Shown: one piece after another, positions 6,750-12,891 of the stretch
How the letters are laid out: the number at the start of each line of letters is the position of its first letter
Numbering within the stretch: position 1 is the first letter of the stretch
NCBI GenBank assembly: GCA_016869975.1
Contig: VGCZ01000024.1
Span: 1 to 64,000, forward strand
Length of the DNA stretch: 64,000 bases
DNA from: Alphaproteobacteria bacterium
GTDB taxonomy: Bacteria; Pseudomonadota; Alphaproteobacteria; Reyranellales; Reyranellaceae
Reading direction: 5' to 3'
The notes under the pieces: model-generated
What the model was told of the DNA's origin: nothing
What the model saw: the letters and a program-made list of their open reading frames with translations, nothing else
The model's database searches: none
Translations under genes and position numbers: made by a program

Positions 6750-8852
6750 TCAGGCTCGCTTCAACCACACCGCCGTGTCGTGGAACACCGCGCCGCCGTT
6801 GGGCCAACCGGGATCGGCCGACGTGATGGCGTTGATGCCGATCTTCCGTTCGAAGTGCTTGTTGGGCCAGATGCCCTCGACGATCACCACGCCGCGCTGC
6901 TGGCCATCCTGCGGCTTGGCGTGGACCAGCACCTCGCCACGCTCGTTGCCGAGGATCACCTTGTCGCCGGACTTCACGCCCAACGCGGCGCAATCCTCGG
7001 GATGGATCAGCGCCGTCGGCCGCTTCTCGCGGCTGAGCGAGCCCGGAGTCTCGGTGAAGGTCGAGTTGAGGAAGGTGCGCGCGGGTGCCGCCACCAAACG
7101 GAAAGGTTTCTCCGGGGTCGCGTTGTCGATCACGTCCATGTGGTCGGGCAGATCGGGCATATCCTGCCAGCGACCGCCGAACCTCTTCCAGTCGGGCCGG
7201 AAGTGGAACTTCTTGTCGGGAGTCTCGAAGCCATCGAGGAAGTGACCCGTCTCGAACGGCTTGACGAAATCCTGGCCGCCTTTCTGGAAGTTTGTCTCGG
7301 CGTCCCACATGCCCGAGACCTTCAAGGTCTCGTCCATGATCTCCCACGCCGTCATGTCGAAGCCGCGATGCTCGGCACCCAGACGCTTGGCCAGCTCGCA
7401 GATCACATAGTGGTTCTCGCGACTCTCGGCATAGGGCTCGATGACCTTCTTGGTCACCTGGAAGTAGGTGTGACCCGAGGCGGTGTAGAAATCGTCGTGC
7501 TCGAGGAAGGTCGTCGCCGGCAGCACGATGTCGGCGAAGGCCGCCGTCTCGGTCGGGAACTGCTCGTGCACGCAAAGGAACAGGTCCTCGCGCGACAGGC
7601 CCTTGTGCACGAGATGCAGCTCCGGACAGACCATCGCCGGGTTGGTGTTCTGGATCAGCATCGCCGTCACCGGCGGCCCGCCGTTCAGCGCCCCGGGATC
7701 GTTGGTCAGGATCGGGCCGAGACGCGACTGGTCGAGCTCGCGCAGCGACATGTCGATATGGTCGTTGCCCTCGATCAGCGTGCGGTTGAGCGGATACATC
7801 TGCGTGTGGCCATAGAGCGCACCGCCGCCGAGCTGCGACCAAGCGCCGGTCACCGTCGGCAGGCAGGTCACCGCGTGCATGTTGGCCGCCCCGTTGCGTG
7901 ACCGGCTGAAGCCGTGGTGGCAACGGATATAGGTCTTCTTGGTCGAGCCGTAGAGCCGCGCGAACGCCACGATCTGCGCCACCGGGATGCCGGTGATCTT
8001 CTCGGCCCACTCGGGCGTGCGCGTCGCGACGTGTTTCGCCAGATCGTCAGGGCAATCGGCGTACTGGCGCAGGTAGTCCCAGTCGGCGAAGCCCTCCTTG
8101 AACAGCACATGCATCACCGCCACCGCCAGCGCGCCGTCGGTACCGGGACGCACGGCCAGGTGCATGTTGGCCTTCTCGGCCGTGCCGGTGCGGTAGGGAT
8201 CGACCACCACCAGCTTGGCGCCGCGCTTCTTGGCGGTCATGGCGTGATGCATAACGTTGACCTGGGTGTTCACCGGGTTGCCGCCCCAGATCACCACCAC
8301 GTCGGAGTGCTCGTCGACCTCGCGCATGTCGACGCCCCGCTTGAAGCCAGTGCCGGCTACCCAGCCGGTGTCGGCGAGCGTCACGCAGATGGTCGAGAAC
8401 CAGCGCGAGTACTTCATCACGTGGCGCAGGCGGTTGATGCCGTCGCGCTGCACCAGGCCCATGGTGCCGGCGTAGTAGTACGGCCACACCGTCTCGCCAC
8501 CGTGCTTCGCCGCCTTGGCGATGAACTGCTCGGCGACGGTGTCGAGCGCCTCCTCCCAGGAGATGCGCGCGAACTGGCCGGAGCCCTTGGGCCCGACCCG
8601 CTTCATCGGGTATTGAAGCCGATCGGGGTGATGAACCCGCTGGGCGTAGCGCGCGACCTTCTCGCAGATCACGCCGGCGGTGTAGGTGTTGCGCCGGGAG
8701 CCATGCACGCGGCCGATGGTGTGGGCGTCGAGCCGCTCGACCTCCAGCGCGCAGGTGCTGGTGCAGTCGTGCGGGCAGACCGAATCGACCAGAACAGGCT
8801 TCTGCTTGGCCGCGGCGGTCTTGCCGGGCCGGGCGCTTCCATCAGGGGCCAT
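6750..8852 (-). CDS. molybdopterin-dependent oxidoreductase, DMSO-reductase family
   Basis: About 700 residues from the ATG at 8852 (MAPDGSARPG). The N-terminal Fe-S domain has Cys26, Cys30, Cys34 and Cys63 in the pattern Cx3Cx3Cx28C, with an MGD-dependent catalytic core (VVIWGGNPVNTQ, VVVDPYRTGTAEKA, VRPGTDGALAVA) and a C-terminal molydopterin dinucleotide-binding beta-barrel (LNSTFTET, IHPEDCAALGVKSGD, GNERGEV). No twin-arginine signal is present, so it is probably cytoplasmic. It lacks neighbouring Fe-S or membrane subunits. The substrate is unknown; thiosulfate/polysulfide-reductase-like and BisC-like members are possible. Downstream is the VOC gene. Confidence 0.88.
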   Translation of the reverse strand: MAPDGSARPGKTAAAKQKPVLVDSVCPHDCTSTCALEVERLDAHTIGRVHGSRRNTYTAGVICEKVARYAQRVHHPDRLQYPMKRVGPKGSGQFARISWEEALDTVAEQFIAKAAKHGGETVWPYYYAGTMGLVQRDGINRLRHVMKYSRWFSTICVTLADTGWVAGTGFKRGVDMREVDEHSDVVVIWGGNPVNTQVNVMHHAMTAKKRGAKLVVVDPYRTGTAEKANMHLAVRPGTDGALAVAVMHVLFKEGFADWDYLRQYADCPDDLAKHVATRTPEWAEKITGIPVAQIVAFARLYGSTKKTYIRCHHGFSRSRNGAANMHAVTCLPTVTGAWSQLGGGALYGHTQMYPLNRTLIEGNDHIDMSLRELDQSRLGPILTNDPGALNGGPPVTAMLIQNTNPAMVCPELHLVHKGLSREDLFLCVHEQFPTETAAFADIVLPATTFLEHDDFYTASGHTYFQVTKKVIEPYAESRENHYVICELAKRLGAEHRGFDMTAWEIMDETLKVSGMWDAETNFQKGGQDFVKPFETGHFLDGFETPDKKFHFRPDWKRFGGRWQDMPDLPDHMDVIDNATPEKPFRLVAAPARTFLNSTFTETPGSLSREKRPTALIHPEDCAALGVKSGDKVILGNERGEVLVHAKPQDGQQRGVVIVEGIWPNKHFERKIGINAITSADPGWPNGGAVFHDTAVWLKRA

Positions 8853-8939
8853 GGAGATAGACGCTCCGCGATAAAGTCGCCCATCATACCGGCGGGCGAC
8901 CATCGGACAAAGCACCCAGTCCAAGAGGGGACAATCGTA

Positions 8940-10337
8940 TTGTCATCGACCGAGACATCAGCCGACAGCGACCCCCAGGTCGCGCGCCGGGCGCTTGCCG
9001 GTGACGCACCCGCCCTGCGCGACCTGGTGCGCTCGGCCTACGCCAAGTGGGCGCCGCTGATCGGCCGCGAGCCCAAGCCGATGACCGCCGACTACGACAA
9101 GGCGGTACGTGAGCACCTGGTGTTCGTGGTCGAGGCGCCCGGCCGACTCGACGCGGCGATCGAGCTGATCCCGGCGGCCGACCATTTGCTGGTCGAGAAC
9201 GTCGCGGTGGCGCCGGCGGCGCAGGGGCGCGGCCTCGGCACGCAACTCATGGACGTCGCCGAGCGGGTCGCGCGCGATCTCGGGCTCCGCGAGTTGCGCC
9301 TCTACACCAACGCCCGGTTCGCTGAGAACATCGCGCTGTACGAGAAGCTGGGCTACGCCATCACCGAGCGCGCCGCGATTCCCACCGGCGGCGAGGTCGT
9401 CTGGATGCGCAAGCAGCTCGACGGCGCCGTGGCGAGCCCACCGGTATTGCCCGAGTCGTTGCGCATGCCGGTCTGGCGCGACGCGCCGGTACCGCTCAGC
9501 CGTGTCGTCTACTACCGCACCGTCTGGGCGGTGCTGGCGCTGATCGTCGGCGTCGGCAGCATATCGCTCGCGGTGTCGGCGGGCGGCCCGATCACCATCG
9601 CCCATATCGCCATCCCCGGCGTGCTGTGCGCGCTGGGCGTCGGCTTCGCGCTCTGGCAGCTCTGGCTGATCGCCGCCGCCGCGCGCCGCATCGCCAACAG
9701 CGGCAATCCCCGGTCGAGCGGTCTCGCCTTCTCCAGCACGATCCTGGGCGCACTGACCATCGCCGGCGTGCTGCACGGCAAGGCCGTGCCGCAGCTCACG
9801 GAGATGTGGGAGATCTATCGCGGCGATCAGCGGCTCAGCGATCTGCGGATCGTCGTCGGCACCGACGGCCGAACCATGGTCCTCGACGGCTCGCTGGGCA
9901 TGAACGCCGCAGCCGACGTCCGGCGCGCGCTCGACGCCCATCCCGATGTGCGCGTGATCGTCTTGGAGGGACCGGGCGGACGCATGGGGCCGGCCTACGA
10001 GATCTTCCAGCTGATCCGCGATCGCGGCCTCAACACGCGGGTCGAGCGCGAATGCGACTCGGCCTGCACGGTCATGTTCCTGGGCGGCGCCGAGCGCAGT
10101 CTCGGCTTCTACGGCCGCCTCGGCTTCCACCAGGTCGGCTTCCCGGGCATGAGCCGCGGCGACATGGTCGACGCCAACCGCCAGCTCGAGCGTTTCCTGA
10201 TCTTCGACGCCAAGCTCGACCGCGACTTCGCGCGTAAGGTGATCGACACACCGCATGATGCGATCTGGTCGCCGACGCCGGAGGAGCTGAAGGCGGCCGG
10301 TGTCATTCATCGCGGCGGCGCGCCGGGGCGCAAATAG
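8940..10337 (+). CDS. GNAT acetyltransferase fused to 3-TM ClpP-like protein
   Basis: 465 residues from a TTG at 8940 with AAGAGGGG nine bases upstream. Residues 1 to about 165 are a GNAT domain (acetyl-CoA loop VAPAAQGRGLGTQLMD about residues 88-103, then YEKLGYAI). Residues from about 174 begin MPVWRDAPVPL, followed by three hydrophobic helices and then a ClpP/crotonase-like domain of the COG3904 type. That domain has a CDSAC nucleophile motif (Ser374) and a GFH motif (His397). With three TM spans, the GNAT part would be cytoplasmic and the ClpP-like part periplasmic. The C-terminal two thirds are paralogous to the next gene, which starts 2 bp later. Confidence 0.85.
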   Translation: MSSTETSADSDPQVARRALAGDAPALRDLVRSAYAKWAPLIGREPKPMTADYDKAVREHLVFVVEAPGRLDAAIELIPAADHLLVENVAVAPAAQGRGLGTQLMDVAERVARDLGLRELRLYTNARFAENIALYEKLGYAITERAAIPTGGEVVWMRKQLDGAVASPPVLPESLRMPVWRDAPVPLSRVVYYRTVWAVLALIVGVGSISLAVSAGGPITIAHIAIPGVLCALGVGFALWQLWLIAAAARRIANSGNPRSSGLAFSSTILGALTIAGVLHGKAVPQLTEMWEIYRGDQRLSDLRIVVGTDGRTMVLDGSLGMNAAADVRRALDAHPDVRVIVLEGPGGRMGPAYEIFQLIRDRGLNTRVERECDSACTVMFLGGAERSLGFYGRLGFHQVGFPGMSRGDMVDANRQLERFLIFDAKLDRDFARKVIDTPHDAIWSPTPEELKAAGVIHRGGAPGRK

Positions 10338-10339
10338 GC

Positions 10340-11206
10340 ATGCTGGGCGTGCCGATCTGGCGCGACGCGCCGGTGCCGCTGGGCCGTGTCGTCAACCATC
10401 GCGTGGTGTGGGCGGCGCTGGCGATGATCGTGGGCTTGAACGCGATCTCCATCGCGATCTCCAAAGGCCGCGACCTCGGCGTCCTCCAGGTCATCATCCC
10501 CGCCGCGCTCTGCGCCGTCGCGTCCTTGTTCGCGCTGTGGCAACTCTGGCTGATCGTCGCCGCCGCGCGCCGCACGATTCGCGAGGGTGGCGGCCTGCGC
10601 TTCGCCGTCCTCTCCATCGCCGGCGCGGCGTTCGGCGCCGCCGCTATCGCCGGCATCCTGCACGAGAAGGCGGTGCCGCAGCTGGAAGAGTTGTGGGACA
10701 TCCACCACGGCGACGAGCGGCTGGGCGACCTCGGCATCGTCGTCACCGACGAGGGCCGCACCCTGATTCTCAATGGCCCGCTGGGCATCGGTGCCGCCGC
10801 GCAGGTCAAGACGGCGCTCGAGCGCAACGCCGGCCTGCGCACCGTCGTCGTGGCCGGTCCGGGCGGCCGCGTCGGGCCGGCCTACCAGATCGCAGGATTG
10901 ATCCGGACGCGCGGTCTCGATACGCGCGTCGAGCACCGATGCTACTCGGCCTGCACTGTGGTTTTCCTCGGCGGCGTGCGGCGCGGCGTCGGACCACGCG
11001 GCGCACTCGGCTTCCATCGGCTGAGCTTCCCCGGGATGGACGACGCAGAGCTCGCCGACGCCAATCGACAGCTGCGCGACTTCATGGTCTTCGCCGGCCA
11101 GGTCAGCGGCTCCTTCGTGCGCCGGGTGATGGAGACGCCATCGGAGTCGATCTGGATACCGACGCTCGAAGAACTGCTCGAGGCCGGTGTGATCCATCGG
11201 CGGTAA
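10340..11206 (+). CDS. 3-TM ClpP-like periplasmic protein, tandem paralogue
   Basis: 288 residues, collinear with residues from about 174 onward of the preceding fusion protein: PIWRDAPVPLGRVV versus PVWRDAPVPLSRVV, then three hydrophobic segments, then a COG3904-like domain. The putative nucleophile is Ser203 in CYSAC and the putative base is His226 in GFH. It starts 2 bp after the upstream stop, so the pair is almost certainly cotranscribed and arose by tandem duplication. Family knowledge: ClpP-fold proteins of this type are predicted to be periplasmic or membrane proteases with no assigned substrate. It lacks the acetyltransferase domain. Confidence 0.82.
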   Translation: MLGVPIWRDAPVPLGRVVNHRVVWAALAMIVGLNAISIAISKGRDLGVLQVIIPAALCAVASLFALWQLWLIVAAARRTIREGGGLRFAVLSIAGAAFGAAAIAGILHEKAVPQLEELWDIHHGDERLGDLGIVVTDEGRTLILNGPLGIGAAAQVKTALERNAGLRTVVVAGPGGRVGPAYQIAGLIRTRGLDTRVEHRCYSACTVVFLGGVRRGVGPRGALGFHRLSFPGMDDAELADANRQLRDFMVFAGQVSGSFVRRVMETPSESIWIPTLEELLEAGVIHRR

Positions 11207-11256: not shown

Positions 11257-12891
11257 ATGATTCCACCAGGCCGCAGCTACGAGCAGGCGCAGGCCGAGTT
11301 CCGTTGGCCCAGGCCGGCTCGCTTCAACATCGCGCGCGCGGTGTGCGACCGTCATCCCGCCGCCGCGCTGGGCATGATCGTCGAGAACGCCGACGGCACC
11401 GTGCGCAACTGGACCTTCGGCGAGCTCGCGCGTGCCAGCGCCCGGCTGGCCAACGCGCTCAAGGCCCGCGGCGTAGCCAAGGGCGATCGCGTCGGCGTGT
11501 TCCTGTCGCAGAGCGCCGAGCTGGCGATCGGCCACCTCGCCTGCTACCGCATGGGCGCGATCGCCCTGCCGCTGTTCACGTTGTTCGGCGAGGAGGCCGT
11601 CGAGTACCGCGCCGCCAATGCCGGCGCCTGCGCCCTGCTCACCGACATGACGCAATTGCCCAAGGTGCTGGCGGTGCGCGAGCGGTTGCCCGACCTGAAG
11701 ACCATCATCGTCATCGGCGCCGGCAAGCACGCCGCCGCGTTCCTCGACTACGACACCTTGGTCGGCGCCACCTCCGACTCCTTCCCCGCGCTCGACACCG
11801 ACGCCGAGGACCCGGCGCTGCTGGTCTACACGTCGGGCACCACCGGCCAGCCCAAGGGCGCGCTGCATGCGCACCGCATGATGATCGGCGTGATTACGGC
11901 AGTGAACCAGTGGGCCGATTTCTGGCCGCGCGGCAACGAGGTGATGTGGACGCCGGCGGAATGGGCGTGGATCGCCGGGCTCTACGACGCGCTGTTCCCG
12001 GCCTGGTGGTACGGCACGCCCGTGCTGGCGCATCGCTTCGCCAAGTTCGATCCCGAGCGCGCCTTCCACATGCTCGACAAGCACCGCGTCGGCGTCGCCT
12101 TCATCCCGCCCACGGCGCTGAAGATGATGCGCCAGGTCGAGCGTCCGCGCGAGCGCTGGGGCTACGACGTGCGCTGCGTCTATACCGGCGGCGAGGCGAT
12201 GGGCGCGGAGCTGCTGCAATGGGGCCGCGACACGTTCGGCTCGACCATCTCCGAAGGCTACGGCCAGACCGAGATGAACCTGATGCTGCTGAACTCGCCC
12301 AACTGGTTCCCGGTCAAGCCCGGCTCCTGCGGCCGCGCCGCCATCGGCCGCAAGGTGGCGGTCGTCGACAGCCAGGGCCGCGTGTTGCCGCATGGCGAGG
12401 AAGGCCAGATCGCCGGCTGGCGGCACGATCCCGTGGTGATGCTGGAGTACTGGAAGAACCCCGAGGGCACGGCGAAGAAGTACGCTGGCGACTGGCTGCT
12501 CACCGGCGATCTCGGGCGCATGGACGAGCAAGGCTACGTCTTCTTCAAGAGCCGCGACGACGACGTGATCACATCAGGGGGCTATCGCATCGGCCCCGGC
12601 GAGATCGAGGAATGCCTGATCAAGCATCCGGCGGTGGCGATGGCCGGCGTCGTCGGCATCCCCGATCCGGTGCGGACCGAGATCGTCAAGGCGTTCGTTC
12701 AGTTACGGCCGGGCGTGAACGGCGACGACGCCCTGAAGCGCGACATTGCCGAGTACGTGAAGACAAGGCTGGCGGCGCACGAATACCCGCGCGAGGTCGA
12801 GTTCCTCGACACGCTGCCGTTGACCACGACGGGCAAGATCCTGCGCCGCGAGCTCAAGCGCATGGATGCGGAAAAGAAGGCAGGCCGCTGA
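11257..12891 (+). CDS. AMP-dependent acyl-CoA synthetase
   Basis: 544 residues from the ATG at 11257 (a GTG directly precedes it). It activates a carboxylic acid to acyl-AMP and then acyl-CoA. The P-loop is YTSGTTGQPKG from about residue 191. EGYGQTEMN, the TGDLGRMDEQGYV hinge region and the C-terminal Lys in TTTGKILRRELK are all present. The overall pattern resembles medium-chain/acetyl-CoA-synthetase-like enzymes; the substrate is not readable from sequence. It follows the ClpP-like gene by 50 bp on the same strand. Confidence 0.92.
   Translation: MIPPGRSYEQAQAEFRWPRPARFNIARAVCDRHPAAALGMIVENADGTVRNWTFGELARASARLANALKARGVAKGDRVGVFLSQSAELAIGHLACYRMGAIALPLFTLFGEEAVEYRAANAGACALLTDMTQLPKVLAVRERLPDLKTIIVIGAGKHAAAFLDYDTLVGATSDSFPALDTDAEDPALLVYTSGTTGQPKGALHAHRMMIGVITAVNQWADFWPRGNEVMWTPAEWAWIAGLYDALFPAWWYGTPVLAHRFAKFDPERAFHMLDKHRVGVAFIPPTALKMMRQVERPRERWGYDVRCVYTGGEAMGAELLQWGRDTFGSTISEGYGQTEMNLMLLNSPNWFPVKPGSCGRAAIGRKVAVVDSQGRVLPHGEEGQIAGWRHDPVVMLEYWKNPEGTAKKYAGDWLLTGDLGRMDEQGYVFFKSRDDDVITSGGYRIGPGEIEECLIKHPAVAMAGVVGIPDPVRTEIVKAFVQLRPGVNGDDALKRDIAEYVKTRLAAHEYPREVEFLDTLPLTTTGKILRRELKRMDAEKKAGR

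Follow-up and report, generated by a model that had tools for sequence, protein, structure and literature searches.

We analysed a 64,000-nucleotide stretch of Reyranellaceae DNA (the window), in which one gene on the forward strand, P1 (8940..10337, stop codon included), encodes a genuine fusion protein of 465 aa that consists of a GNAT domain, three transmembrane (TM) helices and a ClpP-like domain. It is followed after 2 bp by P2 (10340..11206, forward strand, 288 aa), a free-standing paralogue of the 3TM-ClpP-like part. On balance, and with modest confidence, we read P1 as a Ser/His hydrolase that is anchored in the membrane and faces the periplasm, with a GNAT-derived domain in the cytosol that was fused to it once and is probably active in the genus of the window.

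The reading frame of P1 runs from the GNAT domain into the membrane/ClpP unit (8940-10337) without a stop. It starts at a TTG codon that is also kept in two relatives of the same genus, and a Shine-Dalgarno-like stretch, AGAGGGG, lies 9 nt 5' of it. Full-length, in-frame GNAT-TM-ClpP fusions, counted as matches that reach from model position 11 or before to position 421 or beyond, occur at one syntenic locus in 49 of 75 family genomes, single-contig genomes (G022, G023) among them. For every compared segment of the fusion, dN/dS was below 1 (pairwise Nei-Gojobori), indicating purifying selection. A reading of the DNA made earlier from the sequence alone (the sequence-only reading) had proposed this architecture within one protein, with the reservation that the GNAT-TM join could be a start-site artefact. 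The recurrence of the join in frame and the selection acting on it establish the architecture and rule out an artefact of the start site or the assembly. Two genes joined by a lost stop codon or an assembly error thus have next to no probability as an explanation, for which nothing speaks beyond the MAG origin of some of the relatives. Our search of the open-access literature for a GNAT/ClpP-like membrane fusion found nothing relevant, and COG3904, the label that the sequence-only reading had applied to the ClpP-like unit, turned up in an unrelated context only.

Residues 1-160 of P1 (8940..9419, forward strand) form the GNAT acetyltransferase domain, which is predicted to be cytoplasmic. Pfam, AlphaFold2 and Foldseek agree on this assignment: residues 44-139 match Acetyltransf_1 (E 4.5e-14), the pLDDT is mostly 83-95 except at residues 1-10 and 41-50, and the top Foldseek matches of the P1 model are GNAT acetyltransferases. 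The acetyl-CoA pyrophosphate-binding loop, QGRGLG (residues 95-100, 9222..9239, forward strand), is intact and follows the pattern R/Q-x-x-G-x-G/A. Judged from these features, the fused GNAT in the genus of the window is probably an active acetyltransferase. In comparisons with NCBIfam equivalogs, the domain reached no cut-off and stayed far below all of them. Its fold and CoA loop are like those of RimI, PaiA, AcuA and PA4794, but it differs from these acetyltransferases in being fused to a membrane hydrolase and in having decayed, with loss of the loop, in most fused relatives of P1.

The GNAT domain is connected by a linker of low model confidence (residues 161-185, 9420..9494, forward strand) to the membrane part, whose model helices span residues 186-213, 220-253 and 257-293 (9495..9818, forward strand). 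In the AlphaFold2 model of P2, helices at 14-42, 48-81 and 86-122 precede an alpha/beta domain. The three proposed membrane spans were seen as hydrophobic helices in both proteins. Among 19 homologues, the TM2-TM3 loop has a net charge of +2.84 and the stretch after TM3 one of -3.32, which by the positive-inside rule argues for an N-in/C-out orientation. This charge bias bears out, as a prediction, the earlier placing of the acetyltransferase inside and the hydrolase outside: the GNAT domain is predicted to be cytosolic and the ClpP-like domain to lie beyond the inner membrane, in the periplasm. Four distant relatives (L060, L070, L078 and L081) carry an apparent signal peptide, read by eye, before the ClpP-like domain, which fits the periplasmic placing.

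The ClpP/crotonase-fold domain of P1 comprises residues 301-461 (9840..10322, forward strand). AlphaFold2 modelled this domain and the GNAT domain with confidence and the linker and membrane part with low confidence; at a pTM of 0.43, the P1 model leaves the orientation between the two domains undefined. The P2 model has a mean pLDDT of 81, and the models rested on shallow alignments (11 and 21 sequences). The ClpP-like domain of P2 superimposes on ClpP with a Z-score of 17.9 and 2.2 A over 148 residues at 14% identity (VIA-align), and ClpP accounts for all 50 matches listed. Foldseek also returned 1510-N (6m4b, E 3.6e-5) and crotonases among the matches of the P2 model. The ClpP-like fold expected by the sequence-only reading was thus recovered by structure prediction. 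No Pfam or NCBIfam model matches the 3TM-ClpP unit of P1 or P2, a profile of the ClpP-like unit gave only a weak Clp protease match among PDB sequences (E 0.0048), and PHROGs yielded weak matches to protease families only.

The putative nucleophile of P1 is Ser374 in a C-x-S-A-C motif (codon 10059..10061, forward strand) and the putative base is His397 in GFH (10128..10130, forward strand); their counterparts in P2 are Ser203 (10946..10948, forward strand) and His226 (11015..11017, forward strand). All four were found where they had been proposed, and the pair is invariant in 44 of 44 non-gapped family rows examined. In ClpP, a helix begins at the Ser and the His comes just past a strand; in the P2 model, Ser203 opens a helix and His226 directly follows a strand. 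Position 440 is D or E in 18 of 19 family members and is not kept among wider relatives, and this residue is a candidate for the catalytic acid. Lys is missing from the invariant columns of alignment A1 (sequence columns only).

SppA/SohB and 1510-N (NfeD-type) are membrane-linked ClpP-fold serine hydrolases, as P1 and P2 are predicted to be. Their known members use a Ser-Lys dyad, whereas the invariant base candidate of P1 and P2 is His. With ClpP (S14), P1 and P2 share the fold and the positions of Ser and His, but they are membrane-anchored and predicted to be periplasmic, and no ATPase partner was seen. Given the three TM helices and the predicted periplasmic side, it is unlikely that the ClpP-like domain forms a soluble tetradecamer with an AAA+ unfoldase. 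ClpP-fold proteins include non-proteases such as the crotonases; the product of this locus would most likely be a peptidase like SppA or 1510-N, with proteins of the envelope or membrane as its substrates.

The position of the fusion is constant in the family. It lies between a divergent molybdopterin oxidoreductase, detected at 20 of 27 loci with short flanks (L005-L031), and an AMP-forming acyl-CoA synthetase, detected at 26 of the 27, with only 27-28% identity in L029 and L030. In the window, these syntenic genes are found at 6750..8924 on the reverse strand (Pfam Molybdopterin, E 3.7e-43) and, 50 bp after P2, at 11257..12891 on the forward strand (Pfam AMP-binding, E 9.8e-73). The oxidoreductase frame opens at a TTG (window 8849-8924), and homologues from beyond the genus align only from about residue 22 on, so that its start probably is an ATG some 70 bp further in.

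In a phylogenetic tree of 16 fused and 40 stand-alone GNAT domains, all the fused ones group together (support 97/81); L007, L049 and L022, whose rows are long, were excluded from this tree, and the fused domain of G004 is hence unplaced. Because the fused domains form a single clade, the fusion happened once, and separate fusions in each genus are unnecessary. On this sequence comparison the fusion is shown to be an old and single event in an ancestor within the family, in which the GNAT would have been joined on the cytoplasmic side. A placement of the genus's fused GNAT with the stand-alone GNATs of the family was rejected (p-AU 0.0012, with the caveat of long branches). A recent swap of this domain for a stand-alone copy is ruled out by the same test and under the same caveat.

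Most of the fused GNAT domains have since decayed. The acetyl-CoA loop is missing from 36 of the 43 GNAT-bearing rows examined, a count that includes the reference and duplicate loci, and it is retained only by the genus of the window, G004 and G025. In the Reyranella-type group (g3), most fused domains have lost the GREPKPMTADY stretch (substrate loop) along with the CoA loop. L008 (from G025) and L007 (from G004) are intermediate, with a CoA-type loop present and the GREPKPMTADY stretch absent. A Pfam scan of five g3 members without the CoA loop, taken singly, gave no match; hhalign, which compares profiles, identified the degenerate domain as a GNAT homologue (probability 97.2, E 2.8e-11). 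Of the 71 genomes that do not belong to the window's genus, 65 contain a stand-alone-type GNAT with 43-63% identity to that of P1. Each of the four genomes within the genus has one GNAT of P1 type, the fused one, and no stand-alone copy; with a sample of this size, the combination of an intact fused GNAT and no stand-alone copy represents a single evolutionary contrast. An Acidisphaera locus (L038, 4001-4921) holds two P1-type GNAT copies in one unbroken frame, a possible GNAT-GNAT fusion.

The two halves of the protein are also under different constraint. Between G000 and G002, amino acid identity is 0.82 in the GNAT, 0.57 in the TM and 0.72 in the ClpP segment, with dN/dS values of 0.23, 0.65 and 0.31, respectively, and the GNAT is the most constrained segment in both comparisons with G002. 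For the closest pair, G000 and G001, the lowest dN/dS is found in the ClpP part (0.11 versus 0.19 in the GNAT). Across 11 Reyranella-type pairs, dN/dS is 0.05-0.16 in the ClpP part and 0.21-0.41 in the GNAT-like domain; in 10 of these pairs, no other large segment is under weaker constraint than the GNAT-like domain. Together with the lost loops, these values suggest that the GNAT-like domain of the Reyranella-type proteins has a job, which is hardly acetyl transfer. Since the fused GNAT has decayed in most relatives and a separate intact GNAT was kept, the fusion does not appear to be conserved for the sake of acetylation. The conserved function of these proteins would be that of a periplasmic hydrolase, and in the Reyranella-type majority the GNAT fold may have turned into a domain for regulation or docking in the cytosol. 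In the genus of the window, the fused GNAT, the sole copy of its type, is probably active and would acetylate at the membrane.

P2 consists of the 3TM/ClpP unit alone, as the sequence-only reading had it, and is 55% identical to residues 175-465 of P1. A tree of these units places P2 and its relatives together with the genus's own P1-type units (6 rows, 96/92), and the duplication is therefore genus-level; P2 arose there as a copy of the 3TM-ClpP part. Two further genomes of the genus have one gene each. G002 carries the fused gene only, with the ligase directly after P1, and G003 carries the free-standing P2 only, preceded by a GNAT that ends at residue 69. This truncated GNAT runs into the C-terminal GAPxR end of P1, which corresponds to a deletion between similar GGCGC-rich stretches. 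The deletion scar lies around 1292-1492 of L005 and leads from mid-GNAT to the C-terminal end of P1, and the remaining GNAT frame of about 70 aa adjoins P2. Neither gene thus needs the other, P2 is independent of P1, and the fused gene is dispensable even within this genus. These genomes contradict a hetero-oligomer as a requirement, and the earlier suggestion that the tandem paralogues build a hetero-oligomeric ring did not find support. The 2-bp spacing, the Ser/His pair in both proteins and the ClpP fold would suit an obligate ring, but P1 occurs without P2 in G002, P2 occurs without P1 in G003 and a single gene is the rule in the family, so that we regard such a ring as very improbable.

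The sequence-only reading had further suggested that the layout could couple cytosolic acetyl-CoA or acetylation state to periplasmic proteolysis; as the purpose of the design, such coupling found no support. In this view, the level of acetyl-CoA or acetylation by the GNAT would switch the ClpP-like hydrolase via the three helices, and the decayed Reyranella-type GNAT would be an acetyl-CoA-independent version of the switch. A single chain that reaches both sides of the membrane, with both sites intact in this genus and purifying selection on the linker, speaks for such a switch. However, the acetyl-CoA loop was lost in most fused relatives and the ClpP part stayed strongly constrained, P2 and the g4 relatives are wholly without a GNAT, and the model of P1 predicts no contact between the domains. 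Coupling across the membrane is therefore possible but unsupported by the pattern of decay; we consider it unlikely, both as a switch in this genus and as a control that extends to the decayed proteins. It is somewhat less improbable, though still clearly behind our preferred reading, that the two enzymes do unrelated work and that the fusion serves only to hold the acetyltransferase on the membrane or to have both expressed together. The differing patterns of constraint in the two lineages would agree with such a tether, as would the clean deletion in G003, which took the GNAT core together with its ClpP unit and left P2, and the occurrence of stand-alone GNATs with varied neighbours. Unlike a pure passenger, the degenerate GNAT-like domain is under purifying selection, and its junction with TM1 shows high conservation in these proteins.

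One candidate substrate of the fused GNAT is encoded by a neighbouring gene. The acyl-CoA synthetase carries PLTTTGK, an instance of the PX4GK acetylation motif described for the AMP-forming ligase family (PMC11619455), and it adjoins the fusion in nearly all family loci. AcuA offers a precedent, as it acetylates and inactivates AcsA (PMC11255334), and the fused GNAT might in the same way acetylate the PX4GK lysine of the ligase at the membrane. Against this, PX4GK is general in the ligase family, the neighbourhood is kept equally where the GNAT is degenerate, and G003 keeps the ligase without an intact GNAT. The neighbours of the stand-alone homologues also show no common partner: among 44 ORFs next to stand-alone GNATs, none is shared in a way that would hint at a substrate. 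We rate this possibility as doubtful, about on a level with the coupling or a little above it; the PX4GK lysine is a candidate cytosolic substrate of P1 and a lead only.

The 3TM-ClpP-like unit also occurs in a wider set of proteins. Both P1 and P2 match proteins across the class, P2 in 30 of 385 class-level genomes, and in 10 of 13 class-level frames examined at least three hydrophobic spans directly precede the ClpP-like domain. These alphaproteobacterial proteins, for which we keep the label COG3904-type from the sequence-only reading (it does not derive from a COG model), share with P1 and P2 the three TM helices, the ClpP-like domain, C-x-S-A-C and GFH. They differ from P1 in their cytosolic part: no GNAT was present in the inspected frames of class-level relatives outside the family, and two of them (L057 and L079) have, N-terminal to the 3TM-ClpP-like unit, a GYF_2 domain (Pfam E 3.8e-14 and 1.3e-10). 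The unit thus seems to accept different cytosolic domains. A Sel1-repeat protein (L069) has a ClpP-like domain of the P1/P2 type at its C-terminus. Relatives of the ClpP-like domain with 29-35% identity are also found on contigs catalogued as viral (L143-L149), which may be host or prophage DNA.

A chimera of a cytosolic enzyme and a periplasmic hydrolase that is kept across a bacterial family is unusual. It also offers a way into a large and uncharacterised set of ClpP-like proteins, which are anchored in the membrane, probably face the periplasm and carry interchangeable domains in the cytosol (GNAT, GYF_2). The family itself amounts to a natural experiment, in which the products of one fusion have an intact GNAT in this genus and a decayed one in the Reyranella-type members, with differing constraint on the two halves. 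This makes cross-talk between the two sides of the membrane directly testable.
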